Source: an uncultured Pseudomonadota bacterium
Lineage (GTDB): Bacteria > Desulfobacterota > Desulfobulbia > Desulfobulbales > Desulfurivibrionaceae
Direction of reading: 5' to 3'
Length of the DNA: 39,917 bases
NCBI GenBank assembly: GCA_937868185.1
Contig: CALMMG010000010.1
Coordinates: 1 to 39,917 of the forward strand
Shown here: in pieces, positions 41 to 39,917 of the stretch
Numbering within the stretch: the first letter of the stretch is position 1
Layout: each line of letters begins with the position of its first letter
Made by a program: the position numbers and the translations under genes
The notes under the pieces: generated by a model
The model's database searches: none
Seen by the model: only the letters and a program-made list of their open reading frames with translations
What the model was told of the DNA's origin: nothing

Positions 41-51
41 AGTGAGAAATC

Positions 52-94
52 AAGGGAAATCAAGCGATTAGGCTTGGTTTCCCTTTTTCTTTTT
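52..94 (+). terminator. Rho-independent terminator just inside attL
   Basis: A 14-bp stem (AAGGGAAATCAAGC pairing with GCTTGGTTTCCCTT, one G-T pair) around a 6-base loop at 66-71, followed by a T-rich tail at 86-94. It points rightward. In the lysogen it sits 12 bases after the tRNA and can end tRNA transcription. In the excised circle it would lie downstream of the integrase gene across attP. It is phage DNA, since it is inside the repeats. Confidence 0.9.
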
Positions 95-115
95 GGGGTT
101 TTTGTGGGGAGATTC

Positions 116-15073: not shown

Positions 15074-16492
15074 TTACGCCCCGGCGTTCTTGAGCAGGGC
15101 CGGCCAATCCACCGCCTTGGCGCCGCAATCGATGCGGACCTTATATTCCACGCCGTCCACGTTCCAACCCTGCCTGGTCTCCATGTACGGAGTCTGCTGG
15201 CCGTTGAGGAAAAATACCGTGACCGTCTTCCCTTTGGGACCTGCCAAGTACCAGGCGGTTTGCGAGTCGTCGTACAGGCGAGGCTCGAATACCATCTCCA
15301 CCAGATTGGCGTAGATGTTGGTCTGGTTCGGCTGGGCCTGGGTACCGATGACCGTGGACTTGAGGAAGGTCTCGACTGCCAAGGCGATGGACGGCGGGGC
15401 GATGACATACTTCGGCGAGAGGTTCAACCGCCGCTTGCCGCCGATGTCCTTTTGCAGGGCCATGAGCTTGACAGCCTCTGCCAACGTGGTGGTGCCGAAA
15501 ACCCCTGCAGTGCCAAGGTTGCCATGGCTGGCATGGAACAGGGCAATGCCGTCGCGCATGGCGGAGTTGGCCGTCAACACCGCATAGGCGACATCGCCGA
15601 TCTTCCGGGCTGCTGCCTCTCCGTGCGCCCGAGGGATATCGGAAAGGGCGGAGAGATCATCGTTGATGATGGTCTGCCGGGTAATGGCAAACATCTTGCC
15701 GTAGGTGGCGATGGCATACTGCTCCTTGGCGTCGCTGCGCTTTCCGTACTCATAGGGCTGGGAGTCGGTGATCTGGGTGAGGTCTTCCGCCTCGGACACG
15801 CTCATCAGCGAGTTGGTCTTGAAATCCGACACGGAACCGGTTCCGCACCATTTTTCCCAGGTCTCAGGGGCAGTTTCGTATCCGGCGGAAAGGCTTTTGT
15901 TCGCCACATTGGCCAGCAGGTTGGGGAAATCGCTGGTGGTCAGGGCACGGCCAACCATCTCCATGACGTTGCCGCCGGTGGGCTGATTGGCAGCCCGCAA
16001 TGCCAGACGGGCGATTTCGCGCAGGCTGTGGCCGGTGAGATCGGTTGCCCCTGGGGATGGGGTATTTACAGTGATCCCAGCCCGAATGCTCAAGGCATCC
16101 TCGGCTGCGGAGCGGAACTTGTCTTTCTCATCGGCCACGATTTCCACGCTGGGGCGGAAGTTCGGGGTGTTTTTCCCGGCACGGGCGATGACCTCATCCA
16201 TGATCGCCTTGCTGGCGGAATCAACGGTCACTTCCGGTTTCAGCAGGGCAGCGCGGTTCTCTGTCGGGATCTCGAAGCGCTCGCACATGGCGATGATCTC
16301 GGCGGAGCGGGCCTGCTCATTTTTAACGGCCTCGACGCGGACCGCCTCAACGTCCACGGGCGGTGAGGTAACGGTGGCGGCGGATTCTTCCCGCTTGACT
16401 TCCAGTTTGTCCATGAAGGCTTGCGCCTCCGCATCGGTTGCATCCTGGGGCAGTCCACGGCGCTCCAGGAAGGCGCGTAATTCTCTGTTCAT
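15074..16492 (-). CDS. Possible separate capsid product from an internal start
   Basis: Within the fusion gene, Met 190 (position 16492) is preceded by AAAGGAG with 6 bases to the ATG, as good a ribosome-binding site as that of the full gene. Initiation here would give a 472-residue scaffold-plus-capsid protein without the protease, similar in principle to nested lambda C/Nu3. This would let capsid greatly outnumber protease. The site is seen; its use is inference. Confidence 0.5.
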   Translation of the reverse strand: MNRELRAFLERRGLPQDATDAEAQAFMDKLEVKREESAATVTSPPVDVEAVRVEAVKNEQARSAEIIAMCERFEIPTENRAALLKPEVTVDSASKAIMDEVIARAGKNTPNFRPSVEIVADEKDKFRSAAEDALSIRAGITVNTPSPGATDLTGHSLREIARLALRAANQPTGGNVMEMVGRALTTSDFPNLLANVANKSLSAGYETAPETWEKWCGTGSVSDFKTNSLMSVSEAEDLTQITDSQPYEYGKRSDAKEQYAIATYGKMFAITRQTIINDDLSALSDIPRAHGEAAARKIGDVAYAVLTANSAMRDGIALFHASHGNLGTAGVFGTTTLAEAVKLMALQKDIGGKRRLNLSPKYVIAPPSIALAVETFLKSTVIGTQAQPNQTNIYANLVEMVFEPRLYDDSQTAWYLAGPKGKTVTVFFLNGQQTPYMETRQGWNVDGVEYKVRIDCGAKAVDWPALLKNAGA

Positions 16493-17059
16493 AGCGTGCT
16501 CCTTTATTGGTGGCGCGGACGAATCTGCCCTTGCCTTTGCATTTTCGTCGGCCCCGATTGGGCAGACGGACATCTCTCTTGGTTTCCACTTGGTGACGAT
16601 CTTGACCGGTCCGGTGTACGAGCGGCCGCCCACATAGGCGGTCTGGCCCTCGGCAACGATGGTGGATTCTTCGTCCACCCGGCCTACGGAGTAATCGGTG
16701 AGGTGTCCTTCCCTGGTTTTAAGCCAGGCGCTCTCGGCCTCGGGCGCGGCAGAGAAAGTCGCCCTGCCCACCAGTTTGTCTCCCTCGATCCGCATGTCCC
16801 GGAACGATCCGATTACAGAGCTGGTGTCGTAGCGGCTATGGCTGTCGAGCAGGGGGAGCTGCCGGGATTCCGGCAACTGGCACCCGGCCATGGTGATGAT
16901 GGTGGGGTAGACCTCCCAGGAGTCGTAATCCCTCTCGGGGATGGCGGCTTCGGTGGCCCCGATCACCTCAACGGAGCGGCTGGCTTCATCAATGGAGGCC
17001 GGGCCGGTGGCCTCTGCTCCAGGGGCGAGGGATAATTTTCGGTAGTAGAGTTTCGGCAT
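15074..17059 (-). CDS. Prohead protease-major capsid fusion protein
   Basis: A 661-residue protein in two parts. Residues about 1-170 resemble HK97-type prohead proteases: His 74 in LLDSHSRYD and Ser 124 in HLTDYSVG fit the catalytic pair. After a linker and a charged helical stretch (about 190-260, scaffold-like), residues about 330-661 resemble Mu gpT-type capsid proteins (IPRAHGEAAARKIGDVAY, ALFHASHGN). The start at 17059 follows AAGGAG; the frame is open further upstream but that overlaps the portal gene. Such fusions are known in proteobacterial phages and imply self-processing during head maturation. Confidence 0.9.
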   Translation of the reverse strand: MPKLYYRKLSLAPGAEATGPASIDEASRSVEVIGATEAAIPERDYDSWEVYPTIITMAGCQLPESRQLPLLDSHSRYDTSSVIGSFRDMRIEGDKLVGRATFSAAPEAESAWLKTREGHLTDYSVGRVDEESTIVAEGQTAYVGGRSYTGPVKIVTKWKPREMSVCPIGADENAKARADSSAPPIKEHAMNRELRAFLERRGLPQDATDAEAQAFMDKLEVKREESAATVTSPPVDVEAVRVEAVKNEQARSAEIIAMCERFEIPTENRAALLKPEVTVDSASKAIMDEVIARAGKNTPNFRPSVEIVADEKDKFRSAAEDALSIRAGITVNTPSPGATDLTGHSLREIARLALRAANQPTGGNVMEMVGRALTTSDFPNLLANVANKSLSAGYETAPETWEKWCGTGSVSDFKTNSLMSVSEAEDLTQITDSQPYEYGKRSDAKEQYAIATYGKMFAITRQTIINDDLSALSDIPRAHGEAAARKIGDVAYAVLTANSAMRDGIALFHASHGNLGTAGVFGTTTLAEAVKLMALQKDIGGKRRLNLSPKYVIAPPSIALAVETFLKSTVIGTQAQPNQTNIYANLVEMVFEPRLYDDSQTAWYLAGPKGKTVTVFFLNGQQTPYMETRQGWNVDGVEYKVRIDCGAKAVDWPALLKNAGA

Positions 17060-17069
17060 GGTGAGCTCC

Positions 17070-18629
17070 TTATGCTGCCGTTGTCGGGGCAACCGCTTCC
17101 GGGTTGGTCTGCAACGCCGTGCTGATCGCCTTTGGAATTTCGTTGATGAGATCGCGGGCCTTGGCCATCCTCTTGGCCTCGGCAATCTCATTGAGCACAT
17201 CTTCGTAATCCCGCCCACGCGCAGCGGTGATCTCCTGGGGAGAGCGCAGGTTGCTGTCGATCTGCTCGATCCAGGCCTTTCCCTCGCGCAGCGGGTCGAT
17301 GCTTTCGACGCCGGGCGGCTGCCAGACCGCAGCCTGATAGCGGAGAGGATCGGTGAAATATCCAGGCAGGGTGAGCTTGCCAGAGAGGACAGCGCTTTCA
17401 AGGAAAGCGGCCAGAACCGGCTTGCAGAATTGCCGGATGTGGCGCTGCTGGAGCGGGGCGACAACCTTCATGAAATCGTTGCGGATGCCGCGCAGGTTGC
17501 TGTAGTTGATGCCGGAATAGTCTCCGGTCAGCAGTTCGTAGGTGATGCCGGTGGAAACGGCAACCATCCGCAGAATCAGCCGGGTGAACGGCTCAAAAGA
17601 ACTGCCGGGACGGTTGGAAGAGGCGAAATTGATCTTTTCTCCGGGACGCAGGTACTCGATGATAGCGTTCTCCAGGGAGTCGAGCTTCTGGCCGGTGAGC
17701 GGGTCCACCGTATTGCCCCGGATATTCTGAAAACTGGCAATATCCGGGGTTTCGATCAGGGCCAGATACTTGGCGGCCATCTTGGCCCCGTCGATCTCGG
17801 CATCCAGGTAATCGTGCAGATCGTTGGCGATCAGGATCGCGGTGGTGAATGGGGATATTCCCCGGAGCTGGCCGGGACGCAGGGTGCGGAATCCGTGGAT
17901 CACGTTCTCGGCCAAGACCCGCTGGCTTTTGATCCCGCCAGTAAAGTTGTTGAATCCTGACGGAACGACGAAATGGTAGGCGATAACCTGGCCGGTGCGG
18001 AGATCGAACTCAACCCCCTGGTCCACCGGATTTCCGGCCTGCGGCGCAGCCCAGGAGTTGGAAAGCCAGTCGGCTTCGTAGGCCTGAAGCGCGAAGGGGA
18101 TAAACCGTTTGGGGTCGTTGAGATGGGTCTTGACGAAGATGAATTCTCCGGACTCCACATCCTGCCGCTTGGCCAGTTGCTCCAGCTCGTGGTAGTGCAT
18201 GCGGCCCGAGGAGTCGGCCTCATCCATCCACCTGGACCAGGCATCCTCAATCTGGCGGATGATGGTGGTGTGCAGTTTTGATTTCCCGTTGGCGTCGATT
18301 CCACGGGTGACCCGGCTCTGGAAGTTTACCCCGGTGCCAACGGTGTAGTCGGTGAGCACATCCACGGCGCGGGCAAAATAGGCGAAGTCGCGGACCAGTT
18401 GCCTGGATCTGGCTCTGATCTGAGGGGCGCTGGAACGGATCAGGGAATTGACATCGCCATCCACCGGCATCCAGCCTCCATCCAGACGGGAGGCCTTGGC
18501 CGCTGCATACTGGCGCTTGCGGATGACCTCACCCTGGATGCGGTTGATCCTGCGCAGGTTTTCCGTGCGCGGAGAAAAGATGCCGACCGCCCGGTCAAGG
18601 ACGTTTTCCATGAGGGCGAGAGGATTCAA
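17070..18629 (-). CDS. Portal protein (lambda gpB family)
   Basis: A 519-residue protein, close to lambda gpB (533). Family features include SLIRSSAPQIRARSRQLVRD near the start, HDYLDAEIDGAKMAAKYLAL in the middle and GITYELLTGDYSGINYSNLR near residue 370. Portals form the dodecameric ring at one head vertex through which terminase packages DNA. The gene starts in an ATGA overlap with the gpW-like gene and ends 10 bases before the protease-capsid start. Confidence 0.95.
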   Translation of the reverse strand: MNPLALMENVLDRAVGIFSPRTENLRRINRIQGEVIRKRQYAAAKASRLDGGWMPVDGDVNSLIRSSAPQIRARSRQLVRDFAYFARAVDVLTDYTVGTGVNFQSRVTRGIDANGKSKLHTTIIRQIEDAWSRWMDEADSSGRMHYHELEQLAKRQDVESGEFIFVKTHLNDPKRFIPFALQAYEADWLSNSWAAPQAGNPVDQGVEFDLRTGQVIAYHFVVPSGFNNFTGGIKSQRVLAENVIHGFRTLRPGQLRGISPFTTAILIANDLHDYLDAEIDGAKMAAKYLALIETPDIASFQNIRGNTVDPLTGQKLDSLENAIIEYLRPGEKINFASSNRPGSSFEPFTRLILRMVAVSTGITYELLTGDYSGINYSNLRGIRNDFMKVVAPLQQRHIRQFCKPVLAAFLESAVLSGKLTLPGYFTDPLRYQAAVWQPPGVESIDPLREGKAWIEQIDSNLRSPQEITAARGRDYEDVLNEIAEAKRMAKARDLINEIPKAISTALQTNPEAVAPTTAA

Positions 18630-23890: not shown

Positions 23891-24295
23891 TTAAAGTTCC
23901 CGATCAACAAGGCGCTGCATGCTTAACTCCAGCGCTGCACGTATGTTTTCCACGGCATTGATGTCATCAAAGCGGCTTACAGGAATCCGAAAGACCTCTT
24001 CGTCCGTGCAGGTCCTGGTTTCTCCAAAAAAGTCGTCATTCTGGCACGCGAAAAACTCAACTTCGGCATAAGGAAATCTGAGGGTCATAACGTGAGCCCA
24101 CATCTCGGCAGTTGACACTACTCCAGCTTCCTCCATGAACTCCCTTACCATTGCCTCAACTGGTTTTTCTCCTGATTCAATTTTTCCGCCTATGCCATTA
24201 AACAAGCCTGCCTGCCAGATAGGTCTGTTTTTTCTAATCATTACGACATTCTCTATTTTTGAATCGAACATGAATCCTACGACATATCGTTTCAT
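23891..24295 (-). CDS. Nudix hydrolase
   Basis: A 134-residue protein with a perfect Nudix box at residues 37-59 (G-x5-E-x7-REF-x-EE-x-G-V). Nudix enzymes hydrolyse nucleoside diphosphates linked to another group; the length and the phage setting suggest dNTP cleaning or a nucleotide-derived signal, but the substrate is open. I chose the start at 24295 because GGGGAG lies 8 bases upstream; two earlier in-frame ATGs exist at 24322 and 24310. It lies between the terminase subunits. Confidence 0.9.
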   Translation of the reverse strand: MKRYVVGFMFDSKIENVVMIRKNRPIWQAGLFNGIGGKIESGEKPVEAMVREFMEEAGVVSTAEMWAHVMTLRFPYAEVEFFACQNDDFFGETRTCTDEEVFRIPVSRFDDINAVENIRAALELSMQRLVDREL

Positions 24296-24343
24296 TGGCA
24301 GGCTCCCCATGTTGTTTTGCATTTTCTAGAATTTTTTTGGTGC

Positions 24344-25632: not shown

Positions 25633-28128
25633 TTACGCCGCGACCATTGCTTTCTTCTCAAAATCAAACAGACTCGGCATGCTCTTTTTTCTCTCGGCAG
25701 CCTGCAGGTACTTCACCCCGTCAAAAAAATACCCGGTATTCAATTCGCTGGCCCGGCTGCGGCGGCCCAAAAGAATAGCCCGGTACGGCACGGTCATAAG
25801 CCCACCGAACGGGTCGAACACCTCCTCGCCAGGGTTGGTGAAACGGTTGATGATCCGGTCTACAATATCGAACTGCAGGGGACAGATATGGTTATTCAAT
25901 CCCTTCTGCGTCTGGTCTCCGTTGAGGGTCCGCATGCGGTTTACATCGTGCCAGACATCTTCATGGTGGGAGCCCGGCGCCAGGGTCATAAAGGTGGACG
26001 GCAGAGATCCCTTGGCGTCCAGCCGCTCACCCAGGCGGATATGCGCCTCGTAGTCGTAGAGGTTTTCCATGGTGTGCTGCTGGAATACTCGGCTTATGGT
26101 GTCCACCGGGTATTCCGCCATCTGTTCAGCGGTAAGCGACCGATCCCCGGAAGAGCGCCAGAATGAGTGGGCATCCACCTGCCACCGAGCGCGGCTGTAA
26201 TCCTCCTTACTCTTGACCACCCGGTCGTCGGCATAGGATTTGGTGCGGTCGGTGGGCAGCTTGCGGAACAGCAGGATATATTCCGGGGAACCGACGCCCA
26301 TCTTGGTGCCGTCCTTGCATTGCTCCGTCCATCCCAGGCGGTAGGTCTGGTTATTTTCCCGGACCACATCGGTCACCACCGTTATCATCCCGAAATAGAC
26401 AAAGCCGTGCTTCTGGGCATGGAAAATAGCCTCGGCATGGAAAGGGGAGACCGTGGGCATCCCGTGGCCGGTGACGTTGCCGAACATGATCCGGTCCTTG
26501 ACATGGCAGGCATAGACCCGGCCGGGCTTCAAGATGCGCAATAGCTCGGGGGTGAGGAAATCCATCTGCCGCCAGAAGTGATCGTTGTTGTCCGTGTGCC
26601 CGAAATCGTTATAGCTCGGGGTGTACTCGTAGTGGTTGGCAAAGGGGATGGAGGTATGGATCAGGTCGATGGAGTCCGTTTCGATCAGCTTGCACTCTTC
26701 CACGCAATCGTTATTGGCGACGCGGAATTTCTCCCCCGACACCTCGATGCGCTCGACGCCGATGGACCGGCGCAGCTCGCTTTCCATTTCCGCATGGGAC
26801 AGGCCGTACTTCTTGATGATCTCCGTCATTTTCGCCACCATTTCGATATGCCGCGACCACTTCTCTTTCAGGACATCGAGGATGCGCCGCTCGGAATCGG
26901 CGTAGATGATGTGGATGTGGCACTCTTTGACCTGGAGAAAGCGGAAGATACGGTGAATTGCCTGGATGAAATCGTTGAACTTGAAGCCGATACCGAGAAA
27001 GATAGCCGTGTGGCAATGCCTCTGGAAATTGCATCCGGAGCCGGACAAAACCGGCTTGGTGGCCAGGTACTTGATCTTGCCGTATGAAAAATCGATGATG
27101 TTCTGCTCCCGTTCGTCAAGGTCCTGGGAGCCGTACACCTCAACCGCCTCGGGCAAAGCCTTCTTGATGGCGTGGCGCTCTGATTCCTGATCGTGCCACA
27201 ACAGGCAATGGGCGGCAGGATCCTGGCCGATGATCTCCATCATCTTGTCCACCCTGGCCGCCATGCTCTCCCGCTTTTCCCGGCTGGCAGCCTGTAGGGA
27301 AATGGCAGCATTGGGGAACATACCCATCTGCCCGTCACGGTCAACCACGGGGCCGGAGTTGGCCTTGACCTGGTGGTAGTGGACGTGCAGCTGCGGCAGG
27401 TCGTAGCCTTCGTCCGAGTAACCAAGATCGGAAGGCCTTTGCAGAAAGATCGCCCAGGAACTGACCCACAACCAGAATTCATGCTCCTTGTGCGGATACA
27501 GGGTCAGATTGTTGGCCTTGGTGCTGTCGCGCTGGAAAAAGCGGGTAAGGGCCTGGCCGGTGTCCATGATCCCGAGAAACCCTGCGTAGTGGATAAGCTC
27601 CTTATAGCGGTTCGGGCTCGGGGTGGCCGTGGCCACAAAGCGGTATTTTATGTCCTTGAACAGCACCAAGAATTCTTGAAAGGTTTTTGACCCGTAGGAG
27701 CGCAGAACAGACGCCTCATCAAGCGACACGGCGTTGAATTCGTTGACATCCAGCCTGCCATCGCGCACGCTCTCGTAGTTGGTGATGTATAGGCCCTCAT
27801 CGGCCAGATCTTCCGGGCGGCGGACAAATGGAATCCGGATACCGAGTTTGGCTGCGTCGATCTTGAATTCCTGCCGGACTCCAAGCGGAGCGATGATAAG
27901 CTGCCGACCGCCCTCTTTTTTTCCGATAAGGCGCAGGCACTCAAGCTGCATGAAGCTCTTGCCAAGGCCAAAGGCGGCGAATATGGCACGGCGGCCACCG
28001 GCGACAGCCCACCGGGTGATATCAGACTGGTGTGGTTTTAAGAGGGGATTTACCTCCCCGGCTTGCACCGCAAAACCCATTCTGCTGTCAAGACGCACCT
28101 TGGAAGACAAAAAAGTTTTATAGTCCAT
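25633..28128 (-). CDS. SF2 helicase-DNA methyltransferase fusion
   Basis: An 831-residue protein. Residues 1-420 form an SNF2-like SF2 helicase: motif I FGLGKS (53-58), II LDEAS (136-140), III TATPSPN (168-173), VI QAIHRIFR (389-396). Residues about 460-810 resemble a permuted N4-C/N6-A methyltransferase: catalytic motif IV appears as TSIPF (492-496) in place of (D/S)PPY, and motif I as FDPFGGLMT (771-779) with SELN following. Several conserved-looking blocks (YEYTPSYNDFGHTD) remain. The fusion could protect phage DNA or remodel host defence complexes, as with P1 Dar-type proteins. Start 28128 directly follows the primase stop. Confidence 0.85.
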   Translation of the reverse strand: MDYKTFLSSKVRLDSRMGFAVQAGEVNPLLKPHQSDITRWAVAGGRRAIFAAFGLGKSFMQLECLRLIGKKEGGRQLIIAPLGVRQEFKIDAAKLGIRIPFVRRPEDLADEGLYITNYESVRDGRLDVNEFNAVSLDEASVLRSYGSKTFQEFLVLFKDIKYRFVATATPSPNRYKELIHYAGFLGIMDTGQALTRFFQRDSTKANNLTLYPHKEHEFWLWVSSWAIFLQRPSDLGYSDEGYDLPQLHVHYHQVKANSGPVVDRDGQMGMFPNAAISLQAASREKRESMAARVDKMMEIIGQDPAAHCLLWHDQESERHAIKKALPEAVEVYGSQDLDEREQNIIDFSYGKIKYLATKPVLSGSGCNFQRHCHTAIFLGIGFKFNDFIQAIHRIFRFLQVKECHIHIIYADSERRILDVLKEKWSRHIEMVAKMTEIIKKYGLSHAEMESELRRSIGVERIEVSGEKFRVANNDCVEECKLIETDSIDLIHTSIPFANHYEYTPSYNDFGHTDNNDHFWRQMDFLTPELLRILKPGRVYACHVKDRIMFGNVTGHGMPTVSPFHAEAIFHAQKHGFVYFGMITVVTDVVRENNQTYRLGWTEQCKDGTKMGVGSPEYILLFRKLPTDRTKSYADDRVVKSKEDYSRARWQVDAHSFWRSSGDRSLTAEQMAEYPVDTISRVFQQHTMENLYDYEAHIRLGERLDAKGSLPSTFMTLAPGSHHEDVWHDVNRMRTLNGDQTQKGLNNHICPLQFDIVDRIINRFTNPGEEVFDPFGGLMTVPYRAILLGRRSRASELNTGYFFDGVKYLQAAERKKSMPSLFDFEKKAMVAA

Positions 28129-28129
28129 A

Positions 28130-29611
28130 TCAAACCGACTCCCCGCCGCGGCGGATGTAAGCCCCTTGGAACACCTCTTTGACATCAAGCACAGCCGTGG
28201 CCATGGAAGCCGCCCCTTCCGTACCGCTAGCCCGGCAAGCTGCGTGCAGCCGCTCGATCTCTCCGCGGCTAAACACGATTTTTCCGCGCCCTACAGCCTT
28301 ATCCCAATCCTCTTTGCTATCAACCACCAGATACTCGCGGCCATCGGCTGACACGCCGTGAAGTCCTGAGCATTGATAATCCAACGCTTCCGGTGTGGCC
28401 ATTTCCTGTTTTTCGACATCATTTGAGGCCGCTTCCACATCCACCACCAACTCCTCAACAGCCGCCCCCCCCTTCGACAAATCAGAAAAACTGGACTGTC
28501 CGGCTGGTTCCAGCCCGGCGCCGACATGGAACACAGGCGGCAGGCCTGCCATGATCCAGGCGCGGAGATCCACCCCGGCCTTGAACGCCTCGCCCGGGTC
28601 CTTTCCCACCGGCACAGGCCAGCGCAGATGCCGCTCGAAGGTGGCGGACCACTTTGCCAGGGCACGTTGTAGGGCCGGGGTTTTCGGATCGTCCGCATCC
28701 AGGGCGTCGAGGATGGCCAGGGAGCCGGAGAGGAGTGTGTATGCCTCTTCGTCAAGGTTTCCTTCCAGGGTTTCGATGGACACGGCGGAGACCAGATCAG
28801 CGGCGGCGGAGAAGATAGCCACGGCGTCCAGCTCTGCCTCCACCACGGCGAAGGCCCGGGTTGATTCGCCCAGGATCATTGTGGTACCGGTAGAGCCAGG
28901 AATCCGGTAGTACTTGAGGTTTTCGCAGTTCTTTGCCCGTTCTGATTCCGGCCGCCGTACCCGCACCCTCTGAAGCACCCCGCCGCGGTACACAGGGATT
29001 ACCAGTCCGGCAGGAAGCCAGAGACGCTTTGCCTTTCCGCTTTGTTCGTGCAGTTCGGTGGGCAGGCCCCAGCTCTCCCTTGCCCGGTATGTGTCAGACG
29101 GGTTCCAGCCGAGGCGGCAGGCAATCGCCGCCTCACGGCTGATGCAGCGACCAGCGATATAGATCAACTCCTCATTGTTGGCCAGCAGCTGCTCATGGCA
29201 CCAGTCCACGAACTTCTCGGCATGTTCGATCCACAGCGCAGACGGTGAAGATACGGGGTGGATGGTGAGCTTGCGTGATTGCTCCGCCACCGGCCGGGCC
29301 CCGGATGAACGCCCTGGAACGGAGGCCTTAGCCTGAGACTTTGGCTCGATGCCGAGATAGGCGCAGGCCTCGAGATAGCCTTTGCCCTCGAAATCGTGTA
29401 GCCACTGGATGGCGTCGCCGCCCCGGCCGCACTTGCGACAGCTGAAGGTGCCGGTGTTGCCCTGCAACGGCCAGACCCGCATCCGGTTGTTGTTTTTCTC
29501 AAGGCAAATGCAGTCTGGACCATTGCCCGGACATTTGCCGTGGTACTCTCCACCGTTTTTGCCTCCGGCCCTAAACCCGGAAAAGCCAGGGAAATTAAAG
29601 AATTGCATCAT
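28130..29611 (-). CDS. Zinc-ribbon/TOPRIM primase-like protein
   Basis: A 493-residue protein. The N-terminus has a CHC2-like zinc ribbon (Cys 27, 34, 36, then CRKC at 58-61, followed by GGDAIQWL). A TOPRIM-like core follows: FAVVEAELDA (254-263) supplies the Glu, and ILDALDADDP (300-309) the Asp cluster. Such proteins make RNA primers or initiate replication. The C-terminal 150 residues are divergent and may bind the partner helicase two genes upstream. Coupled by ATGA to the gene before it. Confidence 0.85.
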   Translation of the reverse strand: MMQFFNFPGFSGFRAGGKNGGEYHGKCPGNGPDCICLEKNNNRMRVWPLQGNTGTFSCRKCGRGGDAIQWLHDFEGKGYLEACAYLGIEPKSQAKASVPGRSSGARPVAEQSRKLTIHPVSSPSALWIEHAEKFVDWCHEQLLANNEELIYIAGRCISREAAIACRLGWNPSDTYRARESWGLPTELHEQSGKAKRLWLPAGLVIPVYRGGVLQRVRVRRPESERAKNCENLKYYRIPGSTGTTMILGESTRAFAVVEAELDAVAIFSAAADLVSAVSIETLEGNLDEEAYTLLSGSLAILDALDADDPKTPALQRALAKWSATFERHLRWPVPVGKDPGEAFKAGVDLRAWIMAGLPPVFHVGAGLEPAGQSSFSDLSKGGAAVEELVVDVEAASNDVEKQEMATPEALDYQCSGLHGVSADGREYLVVDSKEDWDKAVGRGKIVFSRGEIERLHAACRASGTEGAASMATAVLDVKEVFQGAYIRRGGESV

Positions 29612-33815: not shown

Positions 33816-34000
33816 ACCCTCACCGTTGGTTGAGTTGATTCCTGCTTTGCAGCGCGGTATTCCTTAACCACCCGCAATGCACACCTTGCTCCGTAGACCT
33901 TGCAGGCCAGGTGTACCACCTCACGCTCCAGCTCGTTGGCGTCAATAGAGTCCAGGGCCAGATCAACAGTAGGTGGTGATGTGGTCCCGGAATAGCTCAT
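33812..34000 (-). CDS. Small helical protein of unknown function
   Basis: A 62-residue protein starting MSYSGTTSPPTVDLALDS. The start is set by an ATGA overlap with the excisionase-like gene. The C-terminal half (about residues 20-55) is an amphipathic helix with Cys and Arg. No family recognised. Confidence 0.6.
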   Translation of the reverse strand: MSYSGTTSPPTVDLALDSIDANELEREVVHLACKVYGARCALRVVKEYRAAKQESTQPTVRV

Positions 34001-34290
34001 TGTGGCCGCTTCCCTTTCAGCTTCGGGTAATTCTTGACAAAGTATTGCCAGTCTTCGGGAAGCACAAAGCGATGACGGCCCAGCTTGACTGTTTTGAGCC
34101 ATCCTTGTTGCCGCCAGTAAATGATGGTGTTTTCCGGCACCGTTCCCTTGGTGATTTTGATAATGTCATCCGGGAAGGCGTACATTTCCGGAAGTGCCTG
34201 CTGGTGCTGCATGACTGCAGCCATCTGCCTTGCCATTTCACCGGCAAGGGCAGAAAGGTCGGAACGGCTCATGGTGATGACATCACTCAT
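33997..34290 (-). CDS. Small DNA-binding protein, excisionase/AlpA-like
   Basis: A 97-residue protein. The part from about residue 40 (FPDDIIKITKGTVPENTIIY, then WRQQGWLKTVKLGRHRF) has the winged-helix pattern of MerR/AlpA/excisionase proteins. A role as directionality factor for the integrase or as an early regulator is likely. It is far from attP (4-5 kb from the nearest end), so either is possible. Start 34290 overlaps the stop of the previous gene (ATGA). Confidence 0.65.
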   Translation of the reverse strand: MSDVITMSRSDLSALAGEMARQMAAVMQHQQALPEMYAFPDDIIKITKGTVPENTIIYWRQQGWLKTVKLGRHRFVLPEDWQYFVKNYPKLKGKRPQ

Positions 34291-34817
34291 TTCCCACCCA
34301 CCTTTTCCGCACTCCATTTCCGCAGACTAAGCAGTGCAGCGACCGCCGCATCGATTTCCGAAGAGAGCGCGAGGTATTCTTTCTTTGTGATCTCGCCCGG
34401 CGAATACTCGAACCAATCCTTGCGGAATTCCTCCACGACATGACCAGTCTCTTTCATGATGTGGCTGACCTGTTGCAGGGCCTCGCTGTCTGCGCAAGAT
34501 GGTTGGGAAGGCATGGGGAAAAAGACACCACAGCAGCGCTCTGCCACATGGTGGGCGATAGGTTGTGCGGTTACTGGCGAGCCTTCGCGCAGTATCACAA
34601 AATCAATGATGTCGTCGATGCGCTGCAGTGGAGAAATGCGTCCGGTGTCCCGGTAATCCTCGCTTTCCGGAGGGCGTTTCCATGCCCGCACGAGCTGGCC
34701 AGAAAAAGCGCCCTGGATGAAGTGGGAAAAAGCCTCGGCATATCCGTGCTTGGCAAGGACCTTGGCGAGAACCTCCCAGGCTGCGAGCCCGTGTTTGTTT
34801 TCTGTTGCACTCATCAC
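34287..34817 (-). CDS. Possible CII-like phage regulator, first gene of the early operon
   Basis: A 176-residue protein. The arrangement of an N-terminal helical part (about 8-40), RISPLQRIDDIIDFVI in the middle and a C-terminal helix (EITKKEYLALSSEIDAAVAALLSL) resembles the phage regulatory CII/CP76 family. In P2-like and lambda-like phages such proteins sit beside cro and direct the lysogeny choice. AGGAG or GAGTG precedes tandem ATGs at 34817 and 34814. The assignment is tentative. Confidence 0.6.
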   Translation of the reverse strand: MMSATENKHGLAAWEVLAKVLAKHGYAEAFSHFIQGAFSGQLVRAWKRPPESEDYRDTGRISPLQRIDDIIDFVILREGSPVTAQPIAHHVAERCCGVFFPMPSQPSCADSEALQQVSHIMKETGHVVEEFRKDWFEYSPGEITKKEYLALSSEIDAAVAALLSLRKWSAEKVGGK

Positions 34818-34856
34818 TTCACTCCTGCGCGAATTTCATGGATGATGTGTTGGAAA

Positions 34857-34877
34857 GGGGCAACGCAATGTTGCCCC
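34857..34877. promoter_or_regulatory. Perfect inverted repeat GGGGCAAC-5-GTTGCCCC
   Basis: The 8-bp arms are perfect reverse complements separated by GCAAT. It lies between the divergent early operon start (34817) and the inverted XRE gene (start 34937). Size and symmetry fit an operator for a dimeric HTH protein, most simply that XRE gene product. The rest of 34818-34936 shows no convincing promoter. Confidence 0.65.
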
Positions 34878-34936
34878 AAGGCGAGCGGCAAAGTTGTATT
34901 GTTTTGGAGCGATATGGTGCGTACAACGATCAAGCT

Positions 34937-35245
34937 ATGGATTTTGGCAAGCGGCTCAGAGACAGACGGGAAGAGATCGGACTCTCGCAGGAAGGGCTGG
35001 CGCGGCTGCTTGGCGTCACTTACCAGTGCGTTCAGGGTTGGGAAAGGGAACGCACCTGTCCGAGAACCACGACATTGCCCAATCTTGTCCAGGCCCTGGG
35101 AGTTACCTCGGACTGGCTCCTTGGCATTGCTCCGGTGGCATCCAGACACAGCCATGCCATTCCGCCGCATATTTTGGAAGCGCTTCAAGATGTGCGGATG
35201 CAGCGGGTTATGGTGGCTCTGTGTGAGATTATTCATGGGGAGTAG
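34937..35245 (+). CDS. XRE-family HTH regulator in reverse orientation to the early operon
   Basis: A 102-residue protein with a strong XRE HTH in residues 1-65: FGKRLRDRREEIGLSQEGLA, RLLGVTYQCVQGWERERTCP, ALGVTSDWLLG. The C-terminus is short, without a self-cleavage domain. Start 34937 is chosen from the domain limit; an earlier ATG at 34868 lies within the inverted repeat. It lies between the Cro-like gene and the early operon but on the opposite strand, so leftward transcription from the switch runs antisense through it. It ends 14 bases before the convergent Cro-like gene. Confidence 0.88.
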   Translation: MDFGKRLRDRREEIGLSQEGLARLLGVTYQCVQGWERERTCPRTTTLPNLVQALGVTSDWLLGIAPVASRHSHAIPPHILEALQDVRMQRVMVALCEIIHGE

Positions 35246-35259
35246 CTTCGCCTTAATGG

Positions 35260-35472
35260 TTAAGCTGCTTGCTGAAATGCTTGCTGGATTTTTTCTGGAG
35301 ATCCGCTTGCCACAACTGAAACAGGAATTCCGAACATTTTCTCAATCTCCACCGCCAAGCCCATTGATGGGCGCTTCCCTCCGAGAATGCGGTAAAAATA
35401 TTGTTCGGTAATTCCGAGCCGTTCAGCGATACTCTGTATCTGTGCTCTAGGGATTATGTATTTCATGGGCAT
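35260..35472 (-). CDS. Cro-like HTH regulator
   Basis: A 70-residue protein, mostly one HTH domain (IQSIAERLGITEQYFYRILG, then KRPSMGLAVEIEKMFGIPV). It is divergent from the main repressor across an operator-rich region, the place of cro in lambdoid phages. Starts at 35472 and 35466 are both in frame; the predicted promoter would begin transcription near the second ATG, so translation may be leaderless. It would repress the lysogenic promoter and open lytic growth. Confidence 0.8.
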   Translation of the reverse strand: MPMKYIIPRAQIQSIAERLGITEQYFYRILGGKRPSMGLAVEIEKMFGIPVSVVASGSPEKIQQAFQQAA

Positions 35473-35474
35473 AG

Positions 35475-35502
35475 CTTAAACTCAATGATTAAACTGTGTC
35501 AA
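35475..35502 (-). promoter_or_regulatory. Candidate promoter for the Cro-like gene and leftward early transcript
   Basis: On the minus strand, TTGACA (35502-35497), a consensus -35, is followed by a 16-base spacer and TTTAAG (35480-35475). The start would be about 35468, at the cro ATG codons. Repeats CTTAAAC and GATTAAAC lie within the promoter. Confidence 0.65.
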
Positions 35503-35562
35503 CCGAAAAGATTAAAAAAGAGTAAAAAAATGCAAATTGACGGTTTAATCTTTTCGTTTAAG
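35475..35562. promoter_or_regulatory. Operator cluster of the lysis-lysogeny switch
   Basis: A perfect 13-bp inverted repeat, CGAAAAGATTAAA (35504-35516) and TTTAATCTTTTCG (35544-35556), spaces two binding sites about four helical turns apart. Related half-sites CTTAAAC (35475-35481), GATTAAAC (35487-35494) and CGTTTAAG (35555-35562) surround them. The sites overlap both divergent promoters, as expected for repressor and Cro competition. Which protein prefers which site cannot be told. Confidence 0.75.
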
Positions 35563-35565
35563 AAT
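35537..35565 (+). promoter_or_regulatory. Candidate repressor maintenance promoter
   Basis: TTGACG (35537-35542), 17-base spacer, AAGAAT (35560-35565). Transcription would start at about 35572, the repressor ATG, giving a leaderless mRNA as with lambda cI from PRM. One arm of the 13-bp inverted repeat lies inside the spacer. Confidence 0.6.
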
Positions 35566-35571
35566 GCTGCC

Positions 35572-36099
35572 ATGGGAAGCAAGATTGGAGCATTGATAGA
35601 CAAAAGGTTGATGGACCTTGGTATTACGAACACCGATGTCGCCGCCAAGATTGGGGTTACCCCTCAATATTTGAGTGCTATTAAAAGCGGCAAGCGTGGA
35701 TCGATAGCACCTCGGCCAACCACAGTGAAAAAGATTTCCGAAGCCATTGACGTGCCAATCGGAGAGGTGTGGAATGCATTTCTAGGACAAGATTCCCCAG
35801 CCGCAGACATAAAAAAGACGACCTCTTGGCCTCATGCCGCCGAAGCCGCAGCCAAAGCGGCGACTATGAACATCATCGATTACGTCTACTGGATATTCGA
35901 CCGCGCCATTGAGCGCTATCCACACACGCAGATATTTCTCTCTCATCCGCGAGACTCGATGGAAGGGCACGAAAAACCCATGCAGCGGCGTCTGGACGGA
36001 TTAACCACCGATGCGGAGTTTTATTGGGAGGCTGTCGACTGGATCAAGATGATCCTCGACATCGATGTGAAAAACGCCATGAAAGGCCGTCCGGAATAG
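35572..36099 (+). CDS. Phage repressor with HTH and no self-cleavage domain
   Basis: A 175-residue protein. Residues 1-75 form an XRE HTH (ALIDKRLMDLGITNTDVAAK, IGVTPQYLSAIKSGKRGS, then IDVPIGEVWNAFL). The remaining ~100 residues are helical, without the Ser/Lys peptidase S24 domain of LexA or lambda CI. It must therefore be inactivated another way, and the next gene encodes an HExxH protease. I prefer start 35572, which matches the predicted leaderless transcript; 35530 is also in frame but would place operator DNA in the coding region. Confidence 0.85.
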   Translation: MGSKIGALIDKRLMDLGITNTDVAAKIGVTPQYLSAIKSGKRGSIAPRPTTVKKISEAIDVPIGEVWNAFLGQDSPAADIKKTTSWPHAAEAAAKAATMNIIDYVYWIFDRAIERYPHTQIFLSHPRDSMEGHEKPMQRRLDGLTTDAEFYWEAVDWIKMILDIDVKNAMKGRPE

Positions 36100-36130
36100 G
36101 TCGGCCTATTAAGACATAGCCTGGGGGGGC

Positions 36131-36727
36131 ATGGTGTACGCACAAGAGCGGAGGGTGTTTTTTTGGCAGCGGGTGGCACAACTGTCAAACTGTTATCCAT
36201 TGCTGGGCCGCAGGCCGTGGGGGTGGCACGAAGCACTGTCCCTGGCAGACACCTGCCCGGTGAAACTGATCGCCACCAACATGGTGGATAACGCCGCCCT
36301 GGCTATGAGCCACGGCTACAAACGCATCCTCTACAACCCAGACAGTAAATCAATCGTACCGGTGGTGAAGATCATCCACGAGTGTGCGCATTTCAAACTC
36401 CGGCATCAAGCACTTGCCTGGACCAACAGGCCCGCCGTGGACAAATTCGTCGCCGAGGTCGAGGCGGACGATTTCGTTTTGCTTACCCTTATACCTTCAT
36501 CAGGAATTGAATGGCTTCCCAACTATACCATCGAAAGAATATATGCCGAATATTGTCAGGACTGGCGCTTGGGCAATGTGGCGGCGCGGAAAATGATAAC
36601 CCGGCGCATCGCGTTGCACCTGGAGCATGCCGATGCGGCCGGGGTGCATGTGCGCAACCATACCCAGCTCGCCAGGGTAGTAGCCAATGAAGGACGCCAA
36701 CGAACCCCTGATATTGGTCTGCGATGA
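36131..36727 (+). CDS. ImmA/IrrE-like zinc metallopeptidase
   Basis: A 198-residue protein with HECAH at residues 83-87 (HExxH zinc motif) and EVEADDF at 109-115, where Glu 111 fits the third ligand of the ImmA/IrrE family. In ICEBs1, phi105 and Deinococcus, such proteases cut HTH repressors and thereby induce the element. It is 31 bases after the repressor gene, on the same strand, and overlaps the receiver-PAS gene by 41 bases. Its target is therefore probably the neighbouring repressor. The ribosome-binding site is poor, so expression may be low. Confidence 0.85.
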   Translation: MVYAQERRVFFWQRVAQLSNCYPLLGRRPWGWHEALSLADTCPVKLIATNMVDNAALAMSHGYKRILYNPDSKSIVPVVKIIHECAHFKLRHQALAWTNRPAVDKFVAEVEADDFVLLTLIPSSGIEWLPNYTIERIYAEYCQDWRLGNVAARKMITRRIALHLEHADAAGVHVRNHTQLARVVANEGRQRTPDIGLR

Positions 36728-38126
36728 TCACCGGCAATCGGTTTCCCTGGCGCTTGCCGCCCTGGAAAACCAAGGGTGGGATGTAGTCGCCACCCAAAGC
36801 CCGGCCATCGCCTATCAAGTGGCAACGGAAATGGCCAGAACACCGGACCTGATCCTGCTGGATATCATCATGCCGGAGATGGACGGCTACGAGCTGACAA
36901 GAAAGCTCCAGCAGCACCACAAGACATGCAATGTGCCGATCATCTTTGTCACCTGCATGGGACAGGCAGGTGAAGAGGTCAAGGGCCTGGGCATGGGCGC
37001 GGTGGATTACGTGGTGAAACCGTATTCCGTCGAAGTGCTCCGGGCCCGGGTGCGCAACCAACTGGAAATAGCCAAGCAGCGCCGCCGGGCAGTGGAATGC
37101 GAGTGCCAGCGGCAACGGGCCATTGTCGGCAGCATTACCGATGGGGTGATCATCCTGAATTCCGCAGGGGTCATCACCGAGTGGTCGTCCCAGGTGGAGG
37201 CCATCTGCGGATTCGGCGGCGAGGAAGCCTTAGGGATGCACATCACCGAAATCATGTCGCCGGACTTGCGGCGCCTGCATGAGGGGGTGATCGGCGAAAC
37301 CTTCTCCGGGGCGCGGCCCGATATGTACGGCAAGCGGATACGGAGCGAAATTCTGTGCAAGGACAGCGGATATATCCCGGTGGAGGTGTCCATCGGTCTG
37401 ATGCGGATCGGGGAAGAGATCGCCATCACCGTGCGGGATTTGCGCCCTGACCTGGATGCAGTGGACGAAGGACGCAAACGGGCGCATGAGGCCATGTCTG
37501 CCATGGCCTTTGTCCTGGCCAAGCAGGCAGCCGAACCGCTGGCCGCAGCAAGGGCAAAACTTGCAGCGGTGGGTGATGCCGAGGCGGTGGAACTGGCCAG
37601 TGATCTTGGCGAACTGGCCAATATGTATGACTACCTGTCCGAGATAGAAGCGTTGGGCAGCCATGCCGACCCGATAAACACCCAGGTCTGTATCGAGCGG
37701 GCGGTGCGGGTGTGCTCCGAACAGTGGCGGAAACACATGGGCCACGGCTTGACGGTGCATGTGCCGCCGCTGCCGCCGGTGCGTGCGCATTGCTATGCCC
37801 TGGACTCGATTCTGCATGGCCTGATCTGCCGGGCCATCCAATCATGCACGGCAAAGGGCGATGGCCATGAGGCGAAAATAGTGGTTTCGGCCCTGGCTGA
37901 CAATGGCCGGGTTTGCATCGATGTGGAGGACAACGGCGGCCGGGTGGCGGATGCCAAAAAAATATTTGAATCCTTCCACCCGAAAAGCCAGGCGGAAGCC
38001 GGTGGGCCTCCGCTGTATATCTGCAAGCAACTGGCCAGAAGGTACGGCGGTGATGTGGCTTTGAAAACAAACAAGCCGAGCGGGGCGGTGTTTGAGGTTT
38101 GGCTGCCGGTGGATGGGGTAGAATAG
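36687..38126 (+). CDS. Receiver-PAS-degenerate histidine kinase protein
   Basis: A 479-residue protein. Residues 6-125 are a complete receiver: acidic D13 D14, phospho-acceptor D59 (LILLDIIMPEMDG), T89 and K111. Residues about 142-250 form a PAS sensor domain. Residues about 265-479 resemble a histidine kinase but look inactive: the H-box position reads AKQAAEPLAA with no His, the N-box reads LHGLICRAIQ without the ATP-binding Asn residues, and the G2 box is GGPPLYICKQLA; only DNGG (415-418) is kept. So it can receive a phosphate from another kinase and perhaps bind a ligand, but probably not phosphorylate. Its overlap with the protease gene points to control of repressor cleavage. Confidence 0.9.
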   Translation: MKDANEPLILVCDDHRQSVSLALAALENQGWDVVATQSPAIAYQVATEMARTPDLILLDIIMPEMDGYELTRKLQQHHKTCNVPIIFVTCMGQAGEEVKGLGMGAVDYVVKPYSVEVLRARVRNQLEIAKQRRRAVECECQRQRAIVGSITDGVIILNSAGVITEWSSQVEAICGFGGEEALGMHITEIMSPDLRRLHEGVIGETFSGARPDMYGKRIRSEILCKDSGYIPVEVSIGLMRIGEEIAITVRDLRPDLDAVDEGRKRAHEAMSAMAFVLAKQAAEPLAAARAKLAAVGDAEAVELASDLGELANMYDYLSEIEALGSHADPINTQVCIERAVRVCSEQWRKHMGHGLTVHVPPLPPVRAHCYALDSILHGLICRAIQSCTAKGDGHEAKIVVSALADNGRVCIDVEDNGGRVADAKKIFESFHPKSQAEAGGPPLYICKQLARRYGGDVALKTNKPSGAVFEVWLPVDGVE

Positions 38127-38141
38127 GGAAAGGGAGAAATA

Positions 38142-38582
38142 ATGCGAAGAAATATTTTGGGATTGCTGATTCTGGTGGTTCTGCTTGGAACGGGAGGTTG
38201 TGCGACGACTGTACCCACCATGGCAGAGCTGCAACCTGCGCCGGAAAATAAAATTTTTGCCAATCAAGTGCGGACTGAAGGCAATGCTGAGGTCTCCGTA
38301 CTCAGGGACAAGTCTTTCTCCGGATCAGTCGTTGACTATCGTTTGTTGGTTGATGGAAAACTGTCCGCGCAATTGGCGTGGGGAGAATTTGTTGTGTTAT
38401 CCCTGCCGGCCGGAGATCGCGTCATTGAAGTTCGTCATCCCAGTGCTTTGGTGGGATCGATAGGCGACTCCACAACATTACGCGCCGAGCCAAACGGTAA
38501 ATACTATTATAGGATCAACTCGGACCACGGACAAATCCGACTCCTTCGCACAACGGTTGAATCTGTAAAACCAGCGTTGTAG
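38142..38582 (+). CDS. Prophage-encoded lipoprotein
   Basis: A 146-residue protein with a lipoprotein signal (basic start, hydrophobic core, lipobox LLGTGGC, acylated Cys near residue 20). The mature part is beta-rich (RDKSFSGSVVDYRLLVDGKL, LPAGDRVIEVRHPS) and resembles DUF2846/PEGA-like lipoproteins. AAAGGGAG precedes the ATG. It is a likely lysogenic-conversion gene; outer-membrane lipoproteins of prophages can block receptors. No function is shown. Confidence 0.8.
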   Translation: MRRNILGLLILVVLLGTGGCATTVPTMAELQPAPENKIFANQVRTEGNAEVSVLRDKSFSGSVVDYRLLVDGKLSAQLAWGEFVVLSLPAGDRVIEVRHPSALVGSIGDSTTLRAEPNGKYYYRINSDHGQIRLLRTTVESVKPAL

Positions 38583-38606: not shown

Positions 38607-39827
38607 ATGGCAGCGAATATCACCAAACAAGGCAGCAAGTGGCGGGTGCGTTGGCGCCTCTATCTGCCGGACGATACCTGGCTGGAAAGGTCACGCCTGA
38701 CCACCGACAAGGGGCAAGCCCGCGAGATCAAAGCCATGGCCGATCTTATCGAGATCAAGACCATGCACCAAGAAAGCACGGTGGCTGATCTCGAGCATTG
38801 GCAGCGCCATCGCTTAATAAGCAGGCAGGATGCAGCGCTGCTCAATACGTATAAAGATGCCAGAAAGACCTTGGCCCAGGCGGCCGAGGAGTACAAGATA
38901 TCAAACGATTGCGGAAAGGAAGAGACCGAGGCGCGGGCGGTGCGCATTGACCGTCTGGTGGCGATTCTGGGCCCGGAAAGATCGGTAGGAGATATCCGCC
39001 ACTCCGATGGTGAGCGCGTCAAAACAGTATTGAGGGATGGGTGGAAAGACAATAAAGACGCGAAGGAAAAAAAATACAAGGCGGTAACCATCAATAAGCA
39101 TCTGCAGGACGGCAAACGTATGTTCACCCTACAGATGGCTGAAGGGGTAATTGAACACAATCCATGGGGCGTGCTCAAAGGCGCGAAGATTCCCAAGGAT
39201 GAAGTGATCGCCCATACTGTCCTCAGTCATGACGACATTGCCAAGGTACTGGCAGAAGCAGAGAAGAGCGACCGGAGAATCGAGCCAGGAAACCCGGCGA
39301 GCCTGGGGGGGAACATGGTCCTTTTTCTGCTTATGTTCTTCGGGACAGGATTGCGGCGGAAGGAAGCAATGGCCGCCAAGATGGAGAACATTGACTGGCA
39401 GAGCCGCAGCCTGCTACTGACGATCACTAAAAATGATGAGGCCCGGTCTGTCGGGCTCGGAGAACGTCTCTACTCTTTGCTACTGGCGAGAAAAGGCGAA
39501 ACAGGCTTTATCCTGCCACGCTTTTACCTCAACTCTGTGAGCCGGGCAATCAGCCGTCATTTCAAACGATGCGGATTTAATATGCGGTTGCACGATGCCA
39601 GGCATACCTATGCCACCAGGCTGCTCGACCTTGGGGTGTTGCGGCACGATGCCATGGGCCGCACAGGCCATAAGGACAGCCGGATGCTTGATCACTACAC
39701 CCACCCGGAATTCGGGGAGGTATACGAGGATCAGTTCCCGTTCATGCAACAGACCGTGGGGGTGGCCGCAGAGACCCCCATAAAGCCCGTGAAAAATATG
39801 AAAACCGTACTGCGGGTGGTAAAATAA
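38607..39827 (+). CDS. int: Tyrosine-recombinase integrase
   Basis: A 406-residue integrase. Catalytic residues are in place: R250 (FGTGLRRKEA), K275, H329 and R332 (HDARHTYAT), H355 (GHKDS) and nucleophile Y364 (LDHYTH). The N-terminal 60 residues would be the arm-binding domain and about 85-190 the core-binding domain. It acts on attP and the tRNA target to integrate, and with a directionality factor to excise. Its stop codon lies inside the arm-type repeats beside attR. The usual position next to attR supports prophage-end assignment. Confidence 0.96.
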   Translation: MAANITKQGSKWRVRWRLYLPDDTWLERSRLTTDKGQAREIKAMADLIEIKTMHQESTVADLEHWQRHRLISRQDAALLNTYKDARKTLAQAAEEYKISNDCGKEETEARAVRIDRLVAILGPERSVGDIRHSDGERVKTVLRDGWKDNKDAKEKKYKAVTINKHLQDGKRMFTLQMAEGVIEHNPWGVLKGAKIPKDEVIAHTVLSHDDIAKVLAEAEKSDRRIEPGNPASLGGNMVLFLLMFFGTGLRRKEAMAAKMENIDWQSRSLLLTITKNDEARSVGLGERLYSLLLARKGETGFILPRFYLNSVSRAISRHFKRCGFNMRLHDARHTYATRLLDLGVLRHDAMGRTGHKDSRMLDHYTHPEFGEVYEDQFPFMQQTVGVAAETPIKPVKNMKTVLRVVK

Positions 39828-39834: not shown

Positions 39835-39877
39835 CAGGCTGGAAAGCCTTGTGGGACTAAATACGGCACACACCTCT

Positions 39878-39917
39878 CACGCCGGTAACACGGGTTCGAG
39901 TCCCGTAGGGGTCACCA
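39878..39917. repeat. attR: attR, 40-bp direct repeat
   Basis: Identical to positions 1-40. It is the 3' tRNA fragment left behind after integration; the DNA before it (CACACACCTCTCAC...) does not continue a functional tRNA stem, so the intact tRNA is at the left end. Confidence 0.95.

Follow-up and report, generated by a model that had tools for sequence, protein, structure and literature searches.

Switches that pair a repressor with a peptidase are best known for responding to DNA damage and to peptide signals, and the gene order of ICEBs1, which carries such a pair, is similar to that of the locus described here. This locus lies in contig CALMMG010000010.1 (C10 in our numbering) of an uncultured Desulfurivibrionaceae bacterium (GCA_937868185.1); the contig was analysed over its entire length of 39,917 bases, hereafter the window, and has the appearance of a prophage. 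The functions of the repressor ImmR and its antagonist, the peptidase ImmA, have been described together with an element-encoded protein, RapI, that raises ImmA activity (PMC6540685), and in pneumococcal ImmAR prophages differing third genes of the lysogeny module (szaL, spaL) are described as altering activation (PMC12637031). The window encodes a helix-turn-helix (HTH) repressor-like protein (Rep), followed by a divergent M78/ImmA-like metallopeptidase and by a protein composed of a receiver, a FixL-like PAS domain and a degenerate kinase half, here called the sensor. We tentatively read these genes as an ImmR/ImmA-like module in which the sensor gates the peptidase, an arrangement that we regard as plausible rather than probable. 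New observations reported here are three operator-like sites, a second divergent repressor unit, the FixL-like character of the PAS domain, the degeneration of the kinase half and the replacement of the whole region in a sibling phage.

Repressor, operator-like sites and peptidase

The module comprises the following features (window positions and strand).

35260–35472, minus strand: Cro-like small HTH protein, divergent from Rep (PF01381, E = 0.0014, under the cut-off; phrog_4, E = 0.00048)
35475–35494, minus strand: operator-like site O1 (3 mismatches to O3)
35498–35517, minus strand: operator-like site O2 (4 mismatches to O3)
35543–35562, plus strand: operator-like site O3, GTTTAATCTTTTCGTTTAAG; a promoter-like TTGACG-17-AAGAAT (35537–35565) overlaps it
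35572–36099, plus strand: Rep, HTH repressor-like protein of 175 residues (PF01381, E = 4e-11; phrog_1468, E = 1e-7)
36131–36727, plus strand: divergent M78/ImmA-like metallopeptidase of 198 residues (HECAH at residues 83–87, 36377–36391)
36687–38126, plus strand: sensor, receiver–FixL-like PAS–degenerate HATPase protein of 479 residues (PF00072, E = 6.8e-23; PF00989, E = 1.5e-8; PF02518, E = 1.7e-10)
36861–36863, 37278–37280 and 37521–37523, plus strand: the sensor key residues D59, His198 and Lys279

Rep matched four Pfam HTH families, one of them above its cut-off, and no S24 family in Pfam at E ≤ 0.1, in agreement with an initial annotation of this DNA that had described a repressor without an S24 cleavage domain. 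We adopted the ATG at 35572 as its start; the list of open reading frames (ORFs) gives a TTG at 35401. Copies of the 20-bp site represented by O1–O3 were confined to the gap between the Cro-like gene and Rep, the next best site in the window having 6 mismatches. Matches to consensus promoters in the region did not exceed chance (4 found, 2.9 expected), and neither did consensus terminators. Rep, the peptidase, the sensor, a lipoprotein and an integrase are all encoded on the same strand at short distances, and an apparent operon running from Rep into the integrase gene is supported.

The HECAH motif of the peptidase is followed by EVEADDF from residue 109, with EVEADDF...LIP lying 26–39 residues past HECAH. 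Aligned to 52 M78/ImmA rows of the order and the phylum, of which 51 are distinct, the protein obtained an hhalign probability of 88 (E = 3e-6), and its score of 39.1 narrowly exceeded those of all 300 shuffles in which HECAH was kept (best shuffle 37.5). An earlier alignment had given a probability of 74 and a score above all of 200 such shuffles (35.4 versus 34.2). Pfam and NCBIfam returned no match at E ≤ 0.1, PF06114 included, and PHROG returned weak ones (phrog_1914, E = 0.001; phrog_87, 'metallo-protease', E = 0.0034). A GAF-like domain was not matched in the 198 residues by Pfam, and a single-sequence structure with a mean predicted local distance difference test score (pLDDT) of 33.9 was discarded. 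The HExxH metallopeptidase that had been annotated behind the repressor is upheld by HECAH, by the downstream E..A..F and by the profile match. Sequence evidence thus supports an ImmR/ImmA-like repressor–peptidase pair that is accompanied by operator-like sites in a putative divergent promoter region; Rep is most likely ImmR-like, and the peptidase would antagonise it.

A receiver–PAS protein with a degenerate kinase half

The ORFs of the Cro-like protein, Rep, the peptidase and the sensor are intact. The last two overlap by 41 bases, as annotated; the overlap is real because the receiver domain begins at residue 9 and a later start would truncate it. The receiver, likewise called intact beforehand, has a complete residue set (D13, D14, D59, T89 and K111; PF00072, 81 bits). 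When the PAS domain, whose annotation was borne out by its Pfam match, was compared with PDB sequences, all seven matches at E ≤ 0.01 were FixL heme domains (best 1.8e-6), and His198 aligned with the heme-ligating His of FixL. Five models of the domain were computed from the single sequence. The best (mean pLDDT 73.3, predicted template modelling score 0.67) places His198 within a helix (residues 57–72 of the fragment), and a Foldseek search with it returned FixL heme domains at ranks 1–20 and, at rank 22, the direct oxygen sensor of E. coli. A His occupies the heme-ligand column in one of 29 aligned PAS domains of the same genome (75 places, 30 fetched, 29 aligned). By sequence and predicted fold, the sensor PAS is a probable binder of heme or of some other ligand.

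In an alignment with kinase relatives (18 of 19 loci; L040 dropped out), the phospho-His position is held by His in all 18 relatives and by Lys279 in the sensor. The N-box Asn is replaced by Arg, the second G1 Gly by Arg (DNGGR for DxGxG), and the G2 glycines are lost (GGPPLY). The residues that mark an active histidine kinase (phospho-His, N-box Asn, G1 and G2 glycines) are therefore not those of the sensor, and the annotated absence of the phospho-His and the N-box Asn from the kinase-like domain is borne out for the Asn and, by this alignment, for the His. A REC–PAS–histidine kinase of the host (L198, 671 residues) is collinear in its domains with sensor residues 9–474 at 24% identity and keeps AHD at its H-box and GTGLGL; in the sensor the N-box Asn and the G2 glycines are missing, as is the His if the 18-row alignment is followed. 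Given the same domain order and the motifs kept in L198, the sensor sequence is best read as a decayed REC–PAS–kinase.

A second divergent unit and a sibling phage

Immediately to the left, outside the interval that had been annotated (35260–38126), the window contains a second set of regulatory features.

33997–34317, minus strand: AlpA/excisionase-like small protein, assigned by eye (71% identity in sibling locus L078; sub-threshold Pfam match to GAD-like only)
34287–34817, minus strand: CII/CP76-like regulator, apparent first gene of a leftward operon (PF06892, E = 2.8e-5, just under the cut-off; phrog_101, E = 0.001)
34857–34877, no strand: 21-bp palindrome GGGGCAACGCAATGTTGCCCC, candidate operator (8-bp arms, 100% complementary; next match in the window with 7 mismatches)
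34937–35245, plus strand: HTH2, HTH repressor-like protein of 102 residues (phrog_8, E = 8.1e-14; PF01381, E = 2.5e-12)

HTH2 and the CII/CP76-like gene diverge across the gap that holds the palindrome (unit 34287–35245), and two divergent units, CII-like/HTH2 and Cro-like/Rep, stand in tandem. With this second unit present, the main repressor of lysogeny may be a protein other than Rep. ICESt1 and ICESt3 are described as harbouring both cI and ImmR repressors (PMC6540685); two repressors therefore have precedent, and both may matter. Chance HTH look-alikes were rejected for Rep and HTH2, whose profile matches are strong; that of the Cro-like protein is weak.

A sibling of the phage was recovered as IMG/VR 3300015370_000032, and the same region is present on JAHJTI010000158.1 (L086), a contig of a metagenome-assembled genome. 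It shares the integrase (87% identity), lipoprotein (78%), AlpA-like protein (71%) and primase (88%) of the window. L078, L079 and L087 are one contig and L086 gave the same matches, and all were counted as one sibling. With the integrase or the lipoprotein as query a single locus was obtained, both times from this same phage, and the primase gave five viral loci and one genome locus. Window positions 34276–38195 had no nucleotide match in the sibling at E ≤ 1e-5. The lysogeny region of the sibling encodes an HTH protein of 184 residues and, divergently, a 212-residue repressor; the stretch separating the two genes contains three ATATTTCAAAC-like sites. The slot before its lipoprotein gene is occupied by an HSDR_N-type gene (E = 1.9e-8; L078:6668–7474, plus strand). 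With the flanks kept and the region replaced, exchange has thus affected the lysogeny region as a block, and a different gene adjoins the lipoprotein. When 12 window proteins were set against the sibling repressor, HTH2 came out nearest to it (E = 2e-9), with Rep at E = 0.012. The more distant L081 has the primase and the divergent HTH pair of the sibling in common (E = 8.5e-94, 8.4e-19) and a different integrase; L080/L118, L082 and L083/L120 were set aside as having no comparable lysogeny region. Just beyond the integrase end, L079 and L086 carry window positions 1–95 at 97% identity, so that the attachment (att) core and 55 left-side bases are common to both phages. As further observations, the restriction-like HSDR_N-type gene may represent defence or cargo, and L086:372–929 (minus strand), beyond the integrase end, encodes a protein that is UmuD/S24-like by eye.

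Proposed mechanism and alternative readings

In the mechanism that we propose, Rep would bind O1–O3, repress the divergent Cro-like promoter and tune its own operon, and the M78-type peptidase produced from that operon could inactivate Rep, presumably by cleavage. The sensor, a decayed REC–PAS–kinase of host type, could take phosphate on D59, and heme or another ligand is probably bound by its FixL-like PAS. Judged by its motifs it should not itself phosphorylate and would most likely act by contact, raising or lowering the activity of the peptidase (or of Rep). The gas or redox state or host phosphorelays might thereby bias induction. The Rep module would operate in tandem with the CII-like/HTH2 unit, which is perhaps the primary lysogeny switch. 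A more specific version, in which a captured and apparently dead receiver–heme-PAS–kinase forms a two-input gate (gas/redox and host phosphorelay) on an ImmA-type peptidase, atop a second repressor switch and in a dsrA-bearing host, seems unlikely to us.

A number of results weigh against gating by the sensor. A trio of repressor, ImmA-type peptidase and receiver/PAS protein had been expected, if conserved, to be syntenic in other prophages. We inspected ImmA-type loci, namely 30 of the 33 places with PF06114 in 97 related genomes and 60 of a longer phrog_1914 list from 345 genomes of the phylum, selected by score and next by short ORF. Flanks of ±1.5 kb were covered for 60 loci and of up to about ±3.5 kb for 40, many of which ended at contig ends; with 10 of the 40 being repeats and L060/L112 being one locus, 89 were distinct. 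A receiver ORF was near the ImmA-type gene in none of the 89 (0/60 and 0/40; E ≤ 1e-3), and the receiver hidden Markov model, as a positive control, readily found receivers in other loci. This null is weak evidence because the trio proteins have no close relatives in the collections searched, and it concerns the kind of arrangement rather than orthologues. Of the switch as initially annotated, the ImmR/ImmA-like pair, the operator-like sites and the overlapping sensor-like gene are supported; the lack of co-occurrence that had been named as refuting the coupling was observed as far as the loci inspected reach.

Relatives of the peptidase were absent from viral contigs, phages, genome contigs and plasmids, and none was found at E ≤ 0.001 beyond its own genome among the 97 relatives and 257 genomes of the class (overlapping sets), three genomes giving weak matches (E 0.008–0.04). 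Rep, for which viral contigs and phages were searched, had no match in the former and one HTH-only match in the latter. The sensor had receiver-type matches at 7 loci in viral contigs, where residues 136–479 were not matched, and none of its matches in 204 phage records spanned 80% of the query; by name, many of these records look like bacterial contigs filed as phage. Among 395 genomes of the phylum, its C-terminal kinase half was matched in 35 (E ≤ 1e-9; identity up to 37% outside its own copy) and its receiver and PAS in 308 (up to 47%), an identity at which no close donor stands out.

The individual domain assignments also leave points to be counted on this side. Single-sequence searches support the M78 assignment weakly, and the margin over the shuffles is narrow. 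The PAS model derives from a single sequence, with a pLDDT of about 60 near His198 and means of 36–51 in the other four models. Three PAS domains of the same genome are more FixL-like than that of the sensor, which ranks fourth of 30, so that FixL-likeness by itself is not unique to it, and the positions aligned to what we take to be Arg206 and Arg220 of FixL are Glu and Ile. Pairwise BLASTP with L198 places the H-box His on sensor His267 (AHE triplet). Lys279 is nevertheless favoured for the phospho-His position on alignment grounds, because the 18-row alignment keeps the spacing to EPL (NPL in the relatives), and the N-box, G1 and G2 losses hold whichever residue is the H-box. The HTH2/CII unit lies closer than the Rep unit to the leftward operon. 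In addition, single-stranded DNA (ssDNA) alone is reported to activate the ImmA-family peptidases PprI and CapP (PMC10904395), in which case no sensor gate is required, and SzaL is described as working separately from ImmAR (PMC12637031).

The readings considered here are not mutually exclusive in the confidence given to them, and whether the sensor is gate, output or cargo is a separate question from whether HTH2 or Rep decides lysogeny. As an output, the sensor would be freed by a CapH/CapP-like Rep–peptidase switch and would perturb signalling in the host, for instance by serving as a phosphate sink, in a form of lysogenic conversion. This is suited by the place of its gene, which lies past Rep in what appears to be the operon of the repressor itself. 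CapH and CapP are described as controlling a downstream system (PMC10233336); D59 of the sensor is intact and its kinase half poor in motifs, and the corresponding slot of the sibling is filled by an unrelated HSDR_N-type gene, as in cargo slots. However, the gene run carries on past the sensor into the lipoprotein and integrase genes, and PADLOC recognised no defence gene among 10 proteins, returning HTH-level or marginal matches (E 0.0019 or worse); we consider an output function improbable. An actual CapH/CapP-CBASS (cyclic oligonucleotide-based antiphage signalling) locus was rejected, no CBASS gene being recognised among these proteins either; HTH-level matches to capH were obtained for HTH2 (E = 1.8e-6) and Rep (E = 0.0084). 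The sensor gene could also be an unrelated moron behind an ordinary pair activated by ssDNA or DNA damage, with the 41-base overlap as an insertion scar. Such a gene would explain the lack of receivers at the other ImmA-type loci and the variation of the slot between siblings, and the reported sufficiency of ssDNA for PprI and CapP (PMC10904395) would fit an ordinary pair. We nonetheless judge this quite unlikely, as the gene is intact and tightly overlapping, its receiver residues are kept and the loss of motifs is seen in the kinase half.

On the separate question of the lysogeny decision, HTH2 and the CII-like gene could be the switch, leaving Rep, peptidase and sensor as a distinct module that does not decide lysogeny. 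HTH2 and the CII-like gene occupy the position of the divergent pair of the sibling, adjoining the excisionase-like gene, with the palindrome between them, and HTH2 is nearer than Rep to the sibling repressor. The Rep unit, however, also has three operator-like sites, like the sibling switch with its three ATATTTCAAAC-like copies, its gene run includes the integrase, and the retention of both repressor types in ICESt1 and ICESt3 (PMC6540685) again allows both to matter; a purely HTH2-based decision appears rather doubtful.

Returning to the sensor as a gate on the peptidase, we put this forward as a hypothesis, given the lack of peptidase relatives, of full-length phage relatives of Rep and the sensor, and of receivers at the 89 loci. 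Titles and the openings of abstracts, among which subscription papers were few, contained no phage receiver/PAS gate on a repressor peptidase. If the gating were true, induction would be tied to oxygen, nitric oxide, redox or a host phosphorelay, and so to the chemistry of sediments and redox gradients, and phages would re-use dead kinases as sensors; if the parts cooperate, the prophage could wake on gas or redox changes.

The prophage and its host

The ends of the window and the genes downstream of the sensor are as follows.

1–40, plus strand: left-hand member of the 40-bp direct repeats at the two ends (att core and 3' end of a tRNA), identical to 39878–39917
38142–38582, plus strand: lipoprotein (phrog_890, E = 8.2e-18; 78% identity in L078)
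38607–39827, plus strand: tyrosine integrase (PF00589, E = 6.3e-16; 87% identity in the sibling)
39878–39917, plus strand: right copy of the 40-bp repeat, identical to 1–40

Window proteins match PHROG families for terminase, head, tail, endolysin, helicase and primase. Owing to these matches, the terminal repeats and the integrase at the right end, the window looks like a complete prophage. The integrase had no match at E ≤ 1e-20 beyond its own genome in the 395 genomes of the phylum. Another contig of the host, C166, ends in 40 bases that equal window positions 39873–39912 (35 repeat bases and 5 upstream). Beyond these bases it carries what, judged by eye, is the remainder of a tRNA-Glu gene; ARAGORN reported no tRNA on this truncated piece. 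The repeat at the tRNA 3' end is likely the integration site. The host genome, an 86%-complete draft, contains a dsrA match of 571.8 bits, above the curated cut-off, with a second hit beside it, and the host is therefore probably sulfur-metabolising.

Three ORFs elsewhere in the window were noted in passing. A single ORF of 796 residues (15074–17464, minus strand) is matched by PHROG families for a head maturation protease and for the major head protein (phrog_4523, E = 4.1e-155). An 851-residue ORF (25633–28188, minus strand) combines a helicase match with DNA methyltransferase PHROG matches at residues 482–837, possibly as a fusion or a shared region. A small NUDIX-hydrolase-like gene (23891–24322, minus strand; phrog_1198, E = 6e-9) adjoins the gene for the terminase small subunit.

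Comparison with known systems

The ImmR/ImmA systems of ICEBs1 and, of ImmAR type, of TnSmu1 and pneumococcal prophages encode an M78-type peptidase behind an HTH repressor and have an integrase nearby, as in the window, and additional element-encoded inputs or third genes (RapI; szaL, spaL) are known from such elements. Unlike in these, the peptidase of the window is very divergent and the third gene encodes a receiver–PAS–pseudokinase. A second divergent repressor unit stands alongside, both repressor types being present also in ICESt1 and ICESt3. The logic of peptidase and repressor is common to PprI–DdrO, CapP–CapH and the window module, which differs from these two in that no CBASS genes were recognised and its peptidase gave no GAF-like match. 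Among solved structures, the sensor PAS is closest to FixL, with the heme-ligating His aligned; in contrast to the heme-PAS sensors FixL and DosP, heme binding is here a prediction, the receiver is N-terminal, no intact kinase follows, and what we take to be Arg206 and Arg220 of FixL are absent. DivL-type pseudokinases share with the sensor a kinase fold without phospho-His and an interplay of PAS and receiver; DivL is a cell-cycle protein of the host, whereas in the sensor receiver and pseudokinase share one chain.

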